A program made the translations under genes and the position numbers. 64,000 bases of DNA from Usitatibacter rugosus. Lineage in GTDB: Bacteria > Pseudomonadota > Gammaproteobacteria > Burkholderiales > Usitatibacteraceae. Of the stretch, positions 44,791 to 51,090 are shown one piece after another (position 1 is the first letter of the stretch; each line of letters opens with the position of its first letter). The notes under the pieces are model-generated. The model saw nothing but the letters and a program-made list of their open reading frames with translations, had not been told where the DNA came from and did no database searches. The stretch is taken from assembly GCF_013003965.1 (NCBI RefSeq), contig NZ_CP053069.1, positions 1,271,419-1,335,418 on the forward strand, read 5' to 3'.

Positions 44791-46841
44791 AGGGTTCCCT
44801 TGCGTTGACCGCGGCGTTCGCCGCGTTGCCGGTTGCGGCCCAGTCACCGGGCGCAGAAGATCCGGTTCCCCTCGATCCGATTGTCGTCACCGCAACGCGC
44901 GGCGAGACGCGCGTGTTCGACACGCCCGCCTCGGTGAGCGTCGTCGACGGCTCGGTGATCCGCCTCGCGGGCCCGCAGGTGAACCTCTCCGAGGCGCTCT
45001 CGCGCGTGCCCGGCCTCACGATCCTGAATCGCCAGAACTACGCGCAGGATCTCCAGCTCTCGATCCGCGGCTTCGGTTCGCGCTCGACCTTCGGCATCCG
45101 CGGTGTGCGCCTCGTCGTCGACGGCATTCCCGCGACCATGCCGGACGGCCAGGGCCAGGCGTCGAACATCATGCTGTCGTCCACGAGCCGCATCGAGGTG
45201 CTGCGCGGCCCGCTCGCACTCCTCTACGGGAACTCGGCCGGCGGGGTCGTGCAGGCCTTCTCCGAGGCCGGCTCGCCGCAACCGACGCTGACCGCGGGCG
45301 GCTCGATCGGCTCCTATGACGCACAGCGCTACGACCTGCAGTTCTCCGGATCCAGCGGAGCGCATGCCTACACGGTCGACGCCGCGACGTTCTCCACCGA
45401 CGGCTATCGCGACCACAGCGAGGCGCGCCGCGACCAGCTGAACGCCAAGTGGCGCTGGGACGTGAGCGGGGCCACGCGGCTGGAGACCGTGGTGAACGTG
45501 CTGGACCAGCCGCATTCGCTCGATCCTCTCGGGCTCACGCGCGCGCAGTGGGAGGAGAACCCGCGCCAGGCTCCCGCGATCGCCTACACGCAGGACGCGA
45601 GCAAGACCGTGCGCCAGAAGCAGGTGGGCACGGTGCTCGAGCATGCGTTCGACGACCGCACGCAATTCACCGCGCGGGCCTACGTGGGCCAGCGCGATCT
45701 CGAGAACGCGCTCTCCACGCCGCTGGCGAACCAGGTCGCGCCGACTTCGGCGGGCGGCATCGTCGTGTTCGAGCGCATCTATGCCGGTGCAGCCGCGCAG
45801 GTCGCGCGCCGCTTCACCTGGGATGCCGGAATCGGCGGGCGCGTCGTGGCGGGCCTCGAGTACGACCGCATGGAAGAGGATCGCCAGGGCTACATCAACA
45901 ACGCCGGCCAGCGCGGGGCGTTGAAGCGCGACGAGGACAACACCGTCTACAACGGCGACGCATTCGTGCTCGCCACGCTCGACCTCGGCGAGCGCTGGAG
46001 CTTGGCCGGCGGTGCCCGCTACAGCGGCGTTCACTTCAAGACGCAGGACCACTACATCGCGCCCGGCAACCCCGACGACAGCGGCTCGCTCGACTTCACC
46101 TCGACCAGCCCCGCGCTCGGGCTCACCTGGCACGCCGCGCCGTCGGTGAATGTCTACGCCAACGCCGGGCGCGGCTTCGAGTCGCCGACCTTCACCGAGC
46201 TCGCGTATCGCAACGGGGCATCGGGCCTCAACACCAGCCTCAACGCCTCCAAGAGCCGCCACGGCGAGCTGGGTGTGAAGTGGCGCGTCGGCGCGCACGC
46301 AATCGATGCGGCCGTGTACGAGATCCGCACGCGCGACGAGATCGTCGTCGACACCAACGTCGGCGGCCGCTCGACCTTTCGCAACGCCGGCGGGACCACG
46401 CGGCGCGGCGCGGAGATCTCGGCCAATGGACCGCTCGGCGGCGACCTGCGCTACACCCTCTCCGCCACGCGCCTGGATGCCACGTTCGACAGCGGCGGCT
46501 TCCTTCCGGCCACGCCCGACAAGAGCGCGTTCGCCGAGCTTGCGTGGGTGCCGCGCGCCTGGCCCGGCCTGCAGGCCGGCGTCGAGGTCGTGCACACCGG
46601 GCGCCTCTTCGTGAACGATGCGAACGAGGACAGCGCGCCGTCGGTCACCGTGACCAACCTGCGCCTCGCCTATACGTGGCGCTTCGGCGACTGGGAGGCC
46701 ACGGCCCTGGCTCGTCTCGAGAACGCGACCGATCGCAACTACGCGGGCTCGGTGATCGTGAACGAGGCCAATCGACGCTTCTTCGAACCGGCGCCGCCGC
46801 GCAACGCCATGGGATCGCTCACGGTTCGTTATCGTTTCTAG
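44787..46841 (+). CDS. pqqU: TonB-dependent receptor, PqqU/YncD-like (PQQ uptake)
   Basis: 684 residues from TTG 44787 with a signal peptide ending VAAQ. A TonB-box-like DPIVVTAT precedes the plug domain, and the beta-barrel ends with the aromatic RYRF. The plug segment NRQNYAQDLQLSIRGFGSRS (residues 81-100), DGIPATMPDGQGQ and the C-terminal GSVIVNE match my recollection of E. coli YncD, now known as the PQQ receptor PqqU, almost word for word. With a PQQ-type dehydrogenase and its cytochrome encoded upstream in an overlapping run, import of PQQ is the likely role. The symbol is by similarity and should be confirmed. Confidence 0.82.
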   Translation: MKGSLALTAAFAALPVAAQSPGAEDPVPLDPIVVTATRGETRVFDTPASVSVVDGSVIRLAGPQVNLSEALSRVPGLTILNRQNYAQDLQLSIRGFGSRSTFGIRGVRLVVDGIPATMPDGQGQASNIMLSSTSRIEVLRGPLALLYGNSAGGVVQAFSEAGSPQPTLTAGGSIGSYDAQRYDLQFSGSSGAHAYTVDAATFSTDGYRDHSEARRDQLNAKWRWDVSGATRLETVVNVLDQPHSLDPLGLTRAQWEENPRQAPAIAYTQDASKTVRQKQVGTVLEHAFDDRTQFTARAYVGQRDLENALSTPLANQVAPTSAGGIVVFERIYAGAAAQVARRFTWDAGIGGRVVAGLEYDRMEEDRQGYINNAGQRGALKRDEDNTVYNGDAFVLATLDLGERWSLAGGARYSGVHFKTQDHYIAPGNPDDSGSLDFTSTSPALGLTWHAAPSVNVYANAGRGFESPTFTELAYRNGASGLNTSLNASKSRHGELGVKWRVGAHAIDAAVYEIRTRDEIVVDTNVGGRSTFRNAGGTTRRGAEISANGPLGGDLRYTLSATRLDATFDSGGFLPATPDKSAFAELAWVPRAWPGLQAGVEVVHTGRLFVNDANEDSAPSVTVTNLRLAYTWRFGDWEATALARLENATDRNYAGSVIVNEANRRFFEPAPPRNAMGSLTVRYRF

Positions 46842-47377
46842 GATTCGCTTCCAGGATCGCTTCCGGGAGCAAGCGCGAGGCTCGCTACGCGGATGCCCCG
46901 GTCGCCGGGATGGGGCGTGACGGAGAAACCCACCTTGCGGGCGAGCGCCAGCATCGCGGCATTGCCCGCGAGGATCTCTCCGAAGAGCTCGCGTAGTCCC
47001 CGCCGCCGCGCCTCGTCGACCAAGGCCCGCAACATGCGCGTGCCGATGCCGCTGCCCTGCCACTCGTCGGCCAGCAGCAGCGCGAACTCGGCGCGGTCCC
47101 CCGGAGCGACGACGAAGAACTGGCCCGCGCCCACGGCGATCTCGCGGCCGGCGTCCTCGGCCGTCACGATGAGTGCGTGGGCCAGCTTCGGATCGGGATC
47201 GACGGTCTTGCGCAGGCGCTCGTCGTTCGGCTTCCAGGCGCGGATGAAGAAGCGCAGGTAGCGCGAGCGCGGCGACAGCCGCCGCAGGGCCTCGCGGGCG
47301 ATGTCGAAGTCGGCAGGGACCAGCGGGCGCAGGGTGAGCGCCTTGCCCTCCTCGTTCGTCCAGCGCTCGGTGGCCAT
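46838..47377 (-). CDS. GNAT family N-acetyltransferase
   Basis: 179 residues from ATG 47377. The acetyl-CoA-binding signature is in ADEWQGSGIGTRMLRALV, with the preceding beta strands FFVVAPGDRAEFALLL. Substrate unknown. It converges on the TonB receptor gene (4-nt overlap). Upstream is the small-RNA candidate, separated from this gene by a terminator. Confidence 0.85.
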   Translation of the reverse strand: MATERWTNEEGKALTLRPLVPADFDIAREALRRLSPRSRYLRFFIRAWKPNDERLRKTVDPDPKLAHALIVTAEDAGREIAVGAGQFFVVAPGDRAEFALLLADEWQGSGIGTRMLRALVDEARRRGLRELFGEILAGNAAMLALARKVGFSVTPHPGDRGIRVASLALAPGSDPGSES

Positions 47378-47404
47378 GGCGCCATCCTCACGGGAAAAAA
47401 GGGC

Positions 47405-47431
47405 AAAAAAAAGGGGCAGGAAACCTGCCCC
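47405..47431 (-). terminator. Perfect Rho-independent terminator of the candidate small RNA
   Basis: Stem GGGGCAGG/CCTGCCCC (8 bp, 47413-47431) with an AAA/TTT loop, followed on the minus strand by eight T (47412-47405). It lies 36 nt upstream of the GNAT start and about 300 nt beyond the glrR stop. Confidence 0.9.
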
Positions 47432-47538
47432 ACAAGGCGCACTCTTAAATACAGGAGGGTGAATGACTTGGCGGGGGGATGGAACCGCTTCGGTCATCGC
47501 TCCCTTCGGGAGGGAGCGACACTCCCGGGGGAGTGCTC
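47405..47538 (-). ncRNA. Candidate GlrR/sigma-54-controlled small RNA (about 134 nt)
   Basis: It starts about 12 nt after a sigma-54 promoter (47549-47564) and ends at a strong intrinsic terminator. No start codon with a ribosome site opens a reading frame of useful length. On the minus strand three hairpins can form: 47520-47535 (6-7 bp), 47498-47518 (CGCTCCCT/AGGGAGCG, 8 bp) and 47483-47495 (4-5 bp). An unpaired stretch of about 50 nt follows, with CCCCCC (47473-47478) and CCUCCU (47453-47458). The latter could pair with Shine-Dalgarno sequences. The position directly after glrR and two TGTC-N10-GACA sites upstream recall GlmY of enterobacteria, but no primary sequence likeness is claimed. 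Confidence 0.7.
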
Positions 47539-47548
47539 ACAGCTATTC

Positions 47549-47564
47549 AGCAAGGTCGATGCCA
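47549..47564 (-). promoter_or_regulatory. Sigma-54 promoter
   Basis: On the minus strand TGGCATCGACCTTGCT, with GG and GC separated by 10 nt as RpoN requires. It matches the consensus TGGCAC-N5-TTGCW except for T at the sixth base. It faces the candidate small RNA. Confidence 0.8.
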
Positions 47565-47639
47565 CATTGTCCAAGTCCCTGAATCCCAACGATATGACAT
47601 TTGTCACAGTTCTGGCGTTACGGTGAGTACCCACCAATG

Positions 47640-47657
47640 TGTCGGGTTCCGGCGACA
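47640..47657. promoter_or_regulatory. GlrR-type upstream activator site 1 (TGTC-N10-GACA)
   Basis: TGTCGGGTTCCGGCGACA, a perfect match to the motif reported for GlrR. Its centre is about 111 nt before the predicted start of the small RNA, a usual distance for an enhancer of sigma-54 promoters. Confidence 0.75.
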
Positions 47658-47706
47658 GGGGGTGGGCTGTATTGGCCTATCGTGTTGATTTAGTTACGAA
47701 AATTCA

Positions 47707-47724
47707 TGTCGCTGAAAAACGACA
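47707..47724. promoter_or_regulatory. GlrR-type upstream activator site 2 (TGTC-N10-GACA)
   Basis: TGTCGCTGAAAAACGACA, a second perfect match, centred about 178 nt before the predicted start and directly after the glrR stop codon. A near-consensus IHF site (AATCAACACGATA on the minus strand, about 47680-47692) lies between the two sites. Confidence 0.75.
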
Positions 47725-47729
47725 GGGTG

Positions 47730-49091
47730 TCATTTGACGTCCGGCTTGAAAAGCGCGGCCTCGATGCCGTGGCGCTGCAGCAGTTTGTAGAACTCCGTGC
47801 GGTTGCGCCGCGCGAGTTTCGCCGCCTGCGTGACGCTTCCCTTGGTGAGCTTGAGGATGCGCGTGAGGTAGTCGCGCTCGAAGCGCTTCCTCGCGTCCTC
47901 GAACGACGTCATCTCGTGCATTTCCACTTGAATGGCCTGCTCGACGAAGGCCTGCGGGATGATCTGCGTCGGGCAGAGCGCGATCGACTGCTCGACCACG
48001 TTGTAGAGCTGGCGCACGTTGCCCGGCCACTTCGCCTTCACGAGGAGCTCGAGCGCTTCCGGCGCGAACGCGGACTTCTCGCGTCCATAGCGCGGCGCGA
48101 GCTTCTCGAGGAAATGATCGGCGAGCATCGGGATGTCTTCGGGCCGTTCGGCGAGCGAAGGCAGGCGCAGCGTGACGACGTTCAGCCGGTAGTAGAGATC
48201 CTCGCGGAAGCCGCCCGTCTCCTTCTCGCGCGCGAGGTCGCGATGGGTCGCGGAGATGATGCGCACGTCGAACGGAATGGCGCGCGTGGCGCCGATGGGC
48301 CGGACCTCGCGCGTCTCGATCACGCGCAGCAGCTTCACCTGGAGGGCGAGCGGCATGTCGCCGATCTCGTCGAGGAACAGCGTTCCCTTGTCGGCCGCGA
48401 CGAACAGGCCGCGCTGGTCGGCGATCGCGCCCGTGAACGAGCCCTTGGTGTGGCCGAAGAGCTCGCTCTCCAGCAGCGTCTCGGGGATGGCGCCGCAGTT
48501 GATCGCGACGAAGGCATGGTTGGCGCGCGGGCTGGCGCGATGGATGGCTCGCGCGAGCAATTCCTTGCCCGTGCCGCTCTCGCCCTGGATGAGGATGCTC
48601 GCGTCGCCCGCGGCAACACGCTGCGCCTTCGCGAGCAGGTCTTCCATCAGCGAGGAGCGCGTGACGAGATCCTCGCGCCACACCTGGCCGCCGCCGGAGC
48701 GCAGCGCCCCGCCATGCAGGGTGAGCGCGCGCTCGATCTGCGCCAGCAGCTCGTCGGCATCGTAGGGCTTGGTGAGGTAGCCGAAGACGCCGCGATTCAC
48801 GGCGGTCACGGCTTCGGGAATCGATCCGTGCGCGGTGAGGATGATCACCGGCAACCCGGGATAAGAGGCCTGGATCTCCTGGAAGAGCGCCATGCCGTCC
48901 ATGCCGTCCATGCGCAGATCCGTGAGCACGAGCTCGGGACGCGAGTGCGAGATGGACGCGAGCGCGCGCTGCCCGCTCTCGACCGCCGTCACCGCGTATC
49001 CGTTGGCCTTCAGGCGAATGGAGAGGAGCCGGAGGAGATCCGGATCGTCGTCGACCAGCAGCAGCGAAGCCTTGCCTTCCTTCGACATCAA
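47730..49091 (-). CDS. glrR: Sigma-54-dependent response regulator GlrR (QseF)
   Basis: 453 residues. The receiver domain holds ASLLLVDDDPDLLRLLSIRL and the phosphorylated aspartate in LVLTDLRMDG (near residue 57). The AAA+ domain has Walker A GESGTGKELLARAIH, the sigma-54 contact loop KGSFTGA and DEIGDMPL. A C-terminal Fis-type helix-turn-helix follows (GSVTQAAKLARRNRTEFYKL). It is the third gene of the glrK-qseG-glrR operon and overlaps qseG by 4 nt. Its expected DNA sites stand directly downstream. Confidence 0.93.
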   Translation of the reverse strand: MMSKEGKASLLLVDDDPDLLRLLSIRLKANGYAVTAVESGQRALASISHSRPELVLTDLRMDGMDGMALFQEIQASYPGLPVIILTAHGSIPEAVTAVNRGVFGYLTKPYDADELLAQIERALTLHGGALRSGGGQVWREDLVTRSSLMEDLLAKAQRVAAGDASILIQGESGTGKELLARAIHRASPRANHAFVAINCGAIPETLLESELFGHTKGSFTGAIADQRGLFVAADKGTLFLDEIGDMPLALQVKLLRVIETREVRPIGATRAIPFDVRIISATHRDLAREKETGGFREDLYYRLNVVTLRLPSLAERPEDIPMLADHFLEKLAPRYGREKSAFAPEALELLVKAKWPGNVRQLYNVVEQSIALCPTQIIPQAFVEQAIQVEMHEMTSFEDARKRFERDYLTRILKLTKGSVTQAAKLARRNRTEFYKLLQRHGIEAALFKPDVK

Positions 49092-49651
49092 TTTCCCTTG
49101 CGCCCCGAGAGGCTTTTTTCCAGGTTCGTCAGCGCATCGAGCTTCTGCTGCAGCTGCGCGTTTCGCTCCTGGAGCGTGTCCGCGCGCTGCCGCTGGGACT
49201 CGAGGGCCCGCCGGTCATCCTTGGCTTTTGTACCGGCGGCCGCCGCGGTTTCCTTCAATTTCCGGCGTTCGACCGTCTGGTGTTGCAAGAAGCTTGCCAT
49301 CGCACGCACATCCGGATCGATTCCCTTCGGCTCCCGGGCCAGCGGCTCCACGAGCATCAGGATCTCGCTTTCCTCCGATTGCAGGGCCGAGAGCGCCAGG
49401 GCGAGCTTGAGGCGGCTCACCTCGCCGGGCTGCTGCTTGATGAACTCCCGCTGGCGCGTGGCCTCGAGCGTGAGGCCGGTGTCGTCCAGGTCGCGGAGCC
49501 GCGCCAGGTAGGCCACCAGCTCGTCGGCGGTGGAGGGCGGGCGGGGCGGAGGCGGTGCGGTGGTGGACGTCGAGGACTCGGGCAGGACGCTGCAGGCGCC
49601 GAGGGTGGCGGCCAGCAGGAGGGTTCCGAGGTATTTCAGGCTCCGCCTCAT
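49088..49651 (-). CDS. qseG: QseG-like outer-membrane lipoprotein
   Basis: 187 residues from ATG 49651 with lipobox LGAC, a Thr/Pro-rich linker and a helical domain (ELVAYLARLRDLDDTGLTLEATRQREFI). It ends in a coiled coil (RQRADTLQERNAQLQQKLDALT). Shorter than E. coli QseG (about 237 residues) but in the same place between the kinase and regulator genes. QseG in enterobacteria interacts with the kinase and controls its activity. Overlaps both neighbours by 4 nt (ATGA). Confidence 0.8.
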   Translation of the reverse strand: MRRSLKYLGTLLLAATLGACSVLPESSTSTTAPPPPRPPSTADELVAYLARLRDLDDTGLTLEATRQREFIKQQPGEVSRLKLALALSALQSEESEILMLVEPLAREPKGIDPDVRAMASFLQHQTVERRKLKETAAAAGTKAKDDRRALESQRQRADTLQERNAQLQQKLDALTNLEKSLSGRKGN

Positions 49652-51090
49652 GCGGCCTCCTCCATGTCTCTCTTCCGGGGAATGCGGATGCGGAAGTGCG
49701 CTCCGGGGCCTTCCAGGATCTCCACCTGCCCTTTGTGGAGCTGCACGTACTCCTTCACGATCGACAGGCCCAGGCCGCTGCCCTTGATCGCGGAGACGGG
49801 CGCGTCGGTCCCGCGGAAGAAGGCGTCGAAGACCTTGTCGCGCTCGGATTCCGGGATGCCCGGGCCTTCGTCGAGCACTTCGAACACCGCGTCGGCGGCA
49901 TCCTTGTAGAGCTTGATCGAGATGAGGCCGCGCTCGGGGGAGAACCGCACGGCGTTGGACATCAGGTTGTCGAGGAGCACGCGGACCTTCTCTTCGTCGC
50001 AGAACGCGGTGACGTTCTCGCAGTTGAGCTCGATTCGGATTCCCTTCGCCACCAGCGCGAGCTTCCGGTCGTTGACGACGCGGCGGACCACCTCGCGCAG
50101 CTGCACGATCTTCGCGTCGATGTACGAGGCCTGGTGGTGGACGGCGCTGTAGTTGAGCAGGCCCTCGATCAGGCGGCGCAGCTCGATCGAGTTCTCCTGC
50201 AGGATGCGCGCGATCTCGCGCTGCTCCGGATTCAAATTTCCCACCACGCCGGAGAAGAGGAGGTCGGAGCCCTCGCGCAGCGCCGTGAGCGGCGTCTTCA
50301 GCTCGTGCGAGAGGTGCTGCAGGAAGCGCGTCTTCTGCGCCTCGAGCGTCACGAGGCGCTCCCGCAGCCAATCGAGCTGCTCGCCGAGCCGCACCATGTC
50401 GCCCGGGCCTTCGATGCGGATCGGACGCGCGAACTGTCCCTCGCCCAGCCCGCGGATGCCCGCGCTCACCTGTGAGATCGGCTTCGCGATGAGGAAGGTG
50501 AACGACGCGATGAGCAGGATGGCGGTGGGGATCATCGCGATCATCAGCCAGAAGACGCGGTTGCGGGACTTGACGGCTTGGACCCGCAGCTCCTCGATGC
50601 CCTCGTCGATGACGAGGTCGCCGAGGCGCACCAGGGCCTGGGCACGCGTGGAGAGCTGCGCGAACTCGCTCGCGAGGCGAATCGAAAGATCCGGCGTGGG
50701 TGCACTGCGGCCGATGGCGGCGGCGATCGACTCTTCCTGACGGGAGAGCGACGTGAGCTCACCGCGCTGCTCGTCCGTGAGCGCCATTTCCTCCAGCTGC
50801 TTCACCGCGCCCTGGAACGCCGAACGGTTGGCGCGGTAGGCCTCCAGGAACGTCGCCTCGCCGGCGACCGCGTACTGGCGGGCCGAGCGCTCGAGCGCCG
50901 TCACGTTCCCCGTGAGCGCGCGAGACGATTGCGTCACCTTCACCGCCGAGAGCACCGCCTGCTCGGAGATCGCGGCCAGCCGCTCGAACGCGACGGCATT
51001 CGAGAAGAGCGCGAAGAGCAGCGGTGCGGCCACGATCGTGAAGCCGATCAGCAGCAGCGACAGGAAGGAGCGCGGATAGGTGAGCCTCAT
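49648..51090 (-). CDS. glrK: Sensor histidine kinase GlrK (QseE)
   Basis: 480 residues. A membrane helix (SLLLIGFTIVAAPLLFALF) precedes a periplasmic helical region of about 145 residues. The second helix (FWLMIAMIPTAILLIASF) leads into HAMP (ISQVSAGIRGLGEGQFARPI). The phosphorylated histidine is in HLSHELKTPLTALREGS; the ATP-binding boxes are DNLMSNAVRFSP (N), DEGPGIP (G1) and GSGLGLSIV (G2). It phosphorylates GlrR in response to envelope signals. First gene of the operon; divergent from the DUF3460 gene. Confidence 0.93.
   Translation of the reverse strand: MRLTYPRSFLSLLLIGFTIVAAPLLFALFSNAVAFERLAAISEQAVLSAVKVTQSSRALTGNVTALERSARQYAVAGEATFLEAYRANRSAFQGAVKQLEEMALTDEQRGELTSLSRQEESIAAAIGRSAPTPDLSIRLASEFAQLSTRAQALVRLGDLVIDEGIEELRVQAVKSRNRVFWLMIAMIPTAILLIASFTFLIAKPISQVSAGIRGLGEGQFARPIRIEGPGDMVRLGEQLDWLRERLVTLEAQKTRFLQHLSHELKTPLTALREGSDLLFSGVVGNLNPEQREIARILQENSIELRRLIEGLLNYSAVHHQASYIDAKIVQLREVVRRVVNDRKLALVAKGIRIELNCENVTAFCDEEKVRVLLDNLMSNAVRFSPERGLISIKLYKDAADAVFEVLDEGPGIPESERDKVFDAFFRGTDAPVSAIKGSGLGLSIVKEYVQLHKGQVEILEGPGAHFRIRIPRKRDMEEAA

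Follow-up and report, generated by a model that had tools for sequence, protein, structure and literature searches.

A predicted GlrR-type promoter at the end of the glrK-qseG-glrR operon faces a candidate small-RNA gene in Usitatibacter rugosus

The window, by which we mean the whole 64,000-nt stretch of Usitatibacter rugosus DNA that was analyzed, carries an operon of the glrK-qseG-glrR kind on its minus strand. The histidine kinase gene glrK (qseE; 49648..51090, 480 aa) encodes HisKA and HATPase_c domains and is named from gene order, the best NCBIfam match of its product being CreC, below the cut-off. Next to it lies a probable qseG-type lipoprotein gene (49088..49651, minus strand), assigned from its position and from its sequence, which includes a signal peptide with an LGAC lipobox; its product returned zero matches to protein families, NCBIfam included. 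The response regulator gene glrR (qseF; 47730..49091, minus strand, 453 aa) encodes receiver and sigma-54 interaction domains, and its best match is the NCBIfam model PRK15115 (GlrR), at 629 bits and thus under the equivalog cut-off of 763. The GlrR protein has at least 61 matches (E <=0.001) in the genome as a whole (G000), with 60 of 102 first-look candidates scored; the genome thus appears to be rich in regulators of this kind. On the far side of the interval that concerns us here, a GNAT acetyltransferase gene (46838..47377, minus strand) lies 3' of a terminator and outside the conserved unit, its start about 20-28 nt past the terminator's T-run.

Behind glrR, on the same strand, stand the elements of a predicted promoter. 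Two upstream activator sites of the GlrR/QseF type, both exact matches to TGTC-N10-GACA, are found at 47707..47724 (site 1, TGTCGCTGAAAAACGACA) and 47640..47657 (site 2, TGTCGGGTTCCGGCGACA), and a sigma-54 promoter of the GG-N10-GC form (TGGCATCGACCTTGCT, 47549..47564), one mismatch from the consensus used, has its predicted start at 47538. Between the two activator sites, an IHF-like site (AATCAACACGATA, 47678..47690, minus strand) differs at one position from WATCARNNNNTTR, which we take to be the IHF consensus. All of these elements had been proposed in a first-pass annotation of the stretch and are present as described there; a palindrome listed with them (TGACATTTGTCA, 47595..47606) is likewise in the sequence but is not generally conserved, being limited to 2 of 19 family sequences, those of the window and of L009.

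Counts of single motifs are weak by themselves. Sites 1 and 2 are the only exact TGTC-N10-GACA matches in the 64-kb window, for which 0.69 are expected, and at least two such matches occurred in 19 of 100 shuffled windows; sigma-54 matches with up to two mismatches number 12 in the window versus 21 expected, and are therefore not rare singly. The whole genome holds 30 exact activator sites. At none of the other 28 does a sigma-54 match with up to two mismatches lie 30-220 nt downstream, and 8 of the 28 have one with three mismatches at that distance. Judged on exact sites, the combination of site and promoter at the end of glrR (hereafter the slot, defined as a site behind glrR with at most one mismatch that precedes, by 60-110 bp, a sigma-54 element with no more than two) appears to be the sole strong one in this genome.

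The arrangement gains its significance from relatives, because sites and promoter occur together at every family locus and not in the controls. We compared 19 loci from the window's family, each with a near full-length close glrR (at least 638 bits) and a readable 3' flank; left out were G219, where a contig edge cuts glrR, and a second, more distant and partial glrR in G218 (L036 and C511). A comparison of the region behind glrR, of the kind that the first-pass annotation had suggested, reveals at least two sites with at most one mismatch and a sigma-54 promoter at 19 of 19 loci, and the slot was found neither in 20 rounds of dinucleotide shuffling nor on the opposite strand. The first activator site is within one mismatch at every locus, and the geometry is nearly fixed, with 63-67 bp from site 1 to site 2 and 92-95 bp from site 2 to the promoter at all 19. 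The IHF-like site keeps its strand and lies 30-33 bp ahead of the second activator site across the family; it is perfect at 14 loci and within one mismatch at 18 of the 19, versus 0.4% perfect and 8.3% within one mismatch in mononucleotide shuffles of that stretch. These comparisons support the reading of 47549..47724 as a predicted promoter of the kind that relies on GlrR, IHF and sigma-54, directed toward an RNA unit.

The second glrR-like gene of G218 (L289, contig 511) is partial, with 53% identity over its end. In its 3' flank, sites of the form TGTTGG-N6-CC(G/A)ACA, together with an IHF-like site and with a sigma-54 element one mismatch from the consensus, precede an ORF, and the RNA core described below is missing. 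The gene is perhaps a GlrR paralogue with an altered operator specificity and an output slot of its own.

The interval downstream of the promoter ends in an intrinsic terminator that the first-pass annotation does not contain, an 8-bp stem (47413-47431) followed by T8 (47405..47431, minus strand). Given the strength of this terminator, we read the interval as a terminated transcription unit running from 47538 to 47405 on the minus strand, and thus as the gene of a predicted small RNA of about 134 nt (47405..47538), marked by its fold, its 3' core, covariation in sister genera and the lack of a family-wide ORF. The fold has a z-score of -4.4, and 0 of 200 dinucleotide shuffles were as stable. 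Two CU-rich segments resembling an anti-Shine-Dalgarno sequence lie on the same strand, CUCCCUCCC at 47508..47516 and ACCCUCC at 47454..47460, the latter 5' of the core and recurrent in the family, and are followed by a near-invariant core, GAGUGCGCCUU, at 47434..47444 (minus strand). In the family RNAs the 3' end is kept while the middle varies: the core GUGCGCCUU is present at 19 of 19 loci and GAGUGCGCCUU is exact at 18 of them (L012 reads AUGUGCGCCUU), and the terminator is found at 18 loci, while at the remaining one (L024, in G218) a contig end interrupts the RNA. Two alignments of 17 sequences show no variation in AGAGUGCGCCUU or in the GGGG at the start of the terminator. The window's genus includes two short versions, of 64 nt at L010 (G022) and 43 nt at L012 (G221), and the latter consists of little beyond core and terminator and is without a CU-rich segment.

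In the sister genera the RNA is built from a long closing stem and two hairpins, the first of them with a CU-rich loop, followed by UUCUCCUC, the core and the terminator. Covariation was tested on seven RNAs from two sister genera, a set in which the window's genus is absent, and 17 of 39 pairs had changed on both sides, with 94.5% of cells paired; 0 of 500 shuffles reached either value, and slid controls were 39.7-48.3% paired. One of the five covariation measures, the number of further pair types, was reached in 49 of 500 shuffles, and deriving the structure from the same alignment on which it was tested biases the test in its favor. As the window's genus lies outside the test and folds differently, the common structure holds for the sister genera only. 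Within the window RNA, partial pairing is predicted both for the core (unpaired 0.42) and for the CU-rich segment (unpaired 0.31).

The distribution of this RNA follows that of its putative regulator. A close glrR is present in 20 of 28 family genomes, and the core pattern with a T-run in 18 of the 28, always on the glrR contig and at the same place; the two glrR genomes without a pattern match are explained by contig ends, G219 having no flank and the RNA of G218 being cut before its terminator. The pattern is absent from all eight family genomes without a close glrR, five of which are at least 98% complete. Found with glrR and not in its absence, the RNA and the regulator thus appear to come and go together. 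Each genome has one core-pattern site, and a sibling RNA of that kind was not found. With a stricter pattern, 17 stretches were found in 84,980 species genomes, and 15 of these were assigned to family glrR contigs. The other two (L038 from Halothiobacillus and L047 from Fibrobacteria) we attribute to chance, both being coding-like by eye (leuC-like and ABC-transporter-like). In a sample of 300 genomes of the order, a covariance model of the 3' module gave 68.6-79.1 bits for the five family genomes that carry the RNA and at most 29.7 bits for all others. Outside the family, 23 genomes passed E 0.001, at 24-29.7 bits, with matches that are presumably terminators. As far as these searches reach, the RNA seems confined to the window's family.

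The slot itself extends much further. Among the 300 genomes of the order, 120 had a GlrR match (E <=1e-140), at 128 places, of which five belong to the family. The slot stands behind glrR at 56 of the 123 non-family places, 32 of the 56 having at least two sites, and 67 places fail the rule; shuffled controls averaged 0.15, and the opposite strand had none. An IHF-like site with at most one mismatch was present at 23 of 31 two-site loci outside the family. What follows the promoter is usually a protein gene: at 47 of the 56 non-family slots an ORF of at least 40 aa with a Shine-Dalgarno-like stretch comes before any terminator, 9 are undecided by our rule, and a terminated unit without an ORF was found at none. 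From five cargo products tested, EF-hand, CsbD and BON domains were recovered with one match each, one further product gave a sub-threshold glycine-zipper match and one had no match; by eye, further cargo includes small membrane proteins and more EF-hands. At L110, the sigma-54 promoter is followed by the frame of a 53-aa peptide in which GGFGGTGAP is repeated three times.

We also drew a class-wide sample of 229 genomes, 53 of which had a GlrR match, at 55 places. Taking 29 new loci, among which L286 had no recognizable glrR end and L278 and L287 had short flanks, we examined 28 loci, one of them from the same order as the window, and found the slot arrangement at 7. The rule flags five of these seven as terminated without an ORF, although by eye one of the five (L274) has an EF-hand-like ORF, as do L260 and L265. 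At the other four, L263, L268, L279 and L280, each from a single genome, the GlrR-type promoter leads into a unit that ends at a terminator after about 120-320 nt, crossed at L280 by a 41-aa ATG frame that runs through the terminator; none of these four loci had an Rfam match below E 0.1. The four units are possibly further small RNAs, unrelated to that of the window.

Since the slot in other families mostly leads to an ORF, we read it as a conserved output slot in which the RNA is lineage-specific cargo, and not an inherited glmY module. To judge from the comparisons above, the operon end is an output slot dedicated to GlrR that is wider in distribution than the RNA. A broader view, to which we would give even chances, is that the operon end serves as a socket, in which a GlrR/IHF/sigma-54 promoter of fixed geometry would be retained while the gene behind it is swapped between lineages, proteins giving way to unrelated small RNAs or the reverse. 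The window's family would then hold one such RNA, L263, L268, L279 and L280 others, and glmY, at the other operon end, would be one more.

With respect to mode of action, CUCC occurs three to five times in 16 of the 17 RNAs longer than 100 nt, versus 0.4-1.1 times in mononucleotide shuffles, 18 of 19 family RNAs have a CU-rich anti-Shine-Dalgarno segment ahead of the core, and all 8 genomes tested contain an hfq gene. Because of this enrichment and recurrence, the presence of Hfq and a build like that of the NmsR RNAs, we infer that base pairing through the CU-rich segments is the most likely function. A search of six genomes with an 11-nt target pattern, AAGGCGCACTC, returned 22 places, six of which are the RNA gene itself, and the other 16 compare with 20 in a reversed-pattern control; no conserved target was found by this search. 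Three of the places fall at one position of a TonB-receptor-like coding sequence (in G152, G208 and G022). Another, in the window's genome, is 29 nt upstream of yicC and makes up half of a self-complementary hairpin, and we rejected yicC as a conserved target on finding that only G000 and G152 of 12 upstream regions pair well, the start in G113 being uncertain. L217 and L219, both from the window's genus, have a GCGCCTTGTAAAGGCGC hairpin before yicC that includes the letters of the RNA core. The simple version of base pairing is weakened by the partial pairing of the segments within the window RNA and by the lack of a conserved target in the search.

We think it probable that the interval is a small-RNA gene, an output of GlrK-QseG-GlrR envelope signaling, whose product would be a base-pairing RNA working with Hfq. 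The reading starts from what can be seen in the DNA, namely the sites, the promoter, the terminator, their conservation, the shared absence with glrR, the sister-genus covariation and the lack of a family-wide ORF; we infer from there the phosphorylation step, the use of GlrR, IHF and sigma-54, transcription, the part of Hfq and the targets. In such a scheme, phosphorylated GlrR would bind the two TGTC-N10-GACA sites, IHF would bend the DNA between them, and sigma-54 polymerase would start at about 47538 and stop at the terminator at 47405-47431. The resulting RNA of about 134 nt would bear segments complementary to Shine-Dalgarno sequences together with the conserved GUGCGCCUU core and, with Hfq, would most likely repress in trans the translation of envelope or metabolic mRNAs. 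The explanation is weakened by a GlrR that scores under the equivalog cut-off, by the very short versions at L010 and L012, and by the second slot of G218, which has no RNA.

Other explanations deserve consideration. As core and terminator form the most conserved stretch, and are nearly all that is left in the two shortest versions, the RNA might act by titrating a protein, either Hfq or some other binder of the GUGCGCCUU-terminator module, with no mRNA pairing; the enrichment and recurrence of CU-rich segments (18 of 19 RNAs) fit base pairing better, and we regard titration as rather unlikely. It is also conceivable that the promoter serves a leader of the downstream gene (GNAT in the window), in which case the terminator would be an attenuator and the product a 5' UTR. 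The GNAT gene is indeed close behind the T-run and on the same strand, and a like promoter leads to protein genes in other families, yet by eye the DNA 3' of the unit differs at L010 and L011 while promoter, core and terminator persist, and the only family locus without the terminator is the one cut by a contig end, so that a leader seems to us improbable. Whether the RNA encodes a small protein, or has a dual function, turns on its reading frames. An open frame on the minus strand of the window (46838-47497) begins inside the RNA and passes across the terminator into the GNAT gene, GTG- or TTG-led frames occur in 19 of 19 family RNAs and ATG-led frames of at least 12 aa in 8. A common ATG at L021, L023, L024 and L025 opens frames with a similar start, MLLD(R/H)PPSLGA, and L008, L016 and L017 have the stretch FKSAPCGAG in common, in one frame. 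However, 11 of the 19 RNAs are without an ATG frame of that length, including L019, L020, L022 and L026, which belong to the same sister genera as the four and lack their ATG though the rest of the RNA is kept; the frames that begin alike vary in length (from 21 to 85 aa), the core shows no change at any codon position, and no ORF common to the whole family across the RNA was found at the 19 loci. In our reading the common frames are a side effect of the conserved RNA and do not represent one protein, and a coding role appears very unlikely.

A remaining explanation takes the RNA for a true relative of GlmY, a decoy that would shield a GlmZ-like partner from RapZ and that has moved to the other operon end. 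The first-pass annotation had proposed that the kinase operon and a nearby RNA target are kept as one module, and this holds insofar as the GlrR-type promoter is directed at an RNA unit and is kept together with glrR in the family; that the enterobacterial glmY arrangement itself has been kept in a betaproteobacterium is not borne out. In favor of kinship are the type of regulator and the logic of sites, IHF and sigma-54, and RapZ-like proteins are encoded in 5 of 5 genomes tested. Read directly from the sequences, the C-termini of these proteins appear to lack a basic tail like that of E. coli RapZ. Against kinship, three family members had no match to the GlmY or GlmZ models of Rfam at E up to 10, and the single 3'-core place per genome means that such a sibling is lacking. 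The RNA-binding domain of RapZ is reported to be restricted to Enterobacteriaceae (PMC7073468), and glmY lies before qseE/glrK (PMC6075780), the opposite end of the operon from the window's RNA behind glrR. The protein cargo in other families points the same way. As far as tested, then, the RNA does not appear to be GlmY, and we hold descent from it to be highly improbable.

If the interval is a GlrR-controlled small-RNA gene, as we favor, a two-component system would have kept a dedicated promoter while the controlled gene shifted from protein to RNA, a natural experiment on the purpose of the GlrK/QseG/GlrR envelope signal. It would add a small-RNA family that lies under every Rfam gathering score and whose nearly invariant 11-nt core can be used in target searches, and it would predict that dozens of betaproteobacterial genomes contain a target of GlrR.

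None of the 19 family loci reached an Rfam gathering score, and the nearest known RNAs are analogues at most. Matches to AniS (RF02274) are weak, with 22.5 bits for L022 and 18.5 bits for the window against a gathering score of 50. Sub-threshold matches to RF02278 occur in 16 of 28 family genomes, with 0 of 28 over the cut-off of 50 bits and no match in the window's genome or RNA, and we rejected this identity, since the best sub-threshold place (G209/L055:1303-1366) has a CU-rich segment, CUCCUCCUCC, and a terminator but is without the GUGCGCCUU core. We presume that RF02278, the betaproteobacterial toxic sRNA family, is the one to which S17 (bdhR1) is tied. S17 is described as a betaproteobacterial RNA that has a CU-rich segment and a terminator and that base-pairs close to ribosome binding sites (PMC11722255), and it has a sigma-A promoter in Bordetella, whereas a sigma-54 promoter is predicted here. 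The closest likeness in build is to NmsRA and NmsRB of Neisseria (NgncR_162/163, RF02877), which are likewise betaproteobacterial and combine hairpin, UUCUCCUC and terminator. L022 matches RF02877 at 28.4 bits (E 0.0064), under the gathering score of 52, and as RF02877 is not among the matches of L021 or of the window, we reduced homology to analogy. The NmsR RNAs are reported to have alpha-SD segments complementary to the Shine-Dalgarno sequences of the targets, and they are under a different control (PMC5362039). In the open-licence literature we found no report of a glrR-linked RNA outside Enterobacteriaceae, of GlrR targets in betaproteobacteria or of the slot's protein cargos. The system that resembles the locus in its control is enterobacterial glmY, for which TGTC-N10-GACA (TGTN12ACA) sites, IHF, sigma-54, an adjoining envelope kinase operon and an RNA product are reported (PMC6075780, PMC8745638). 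E. coli glmY has three reported activator sites versus two here, and within the window exact TGTC-N10-GACA matches are absent elsewhere, including before glrK. As far as the data go, the promoter logic appears to be common with enterobacteria, and what differs is the gene that the promoter would drive.
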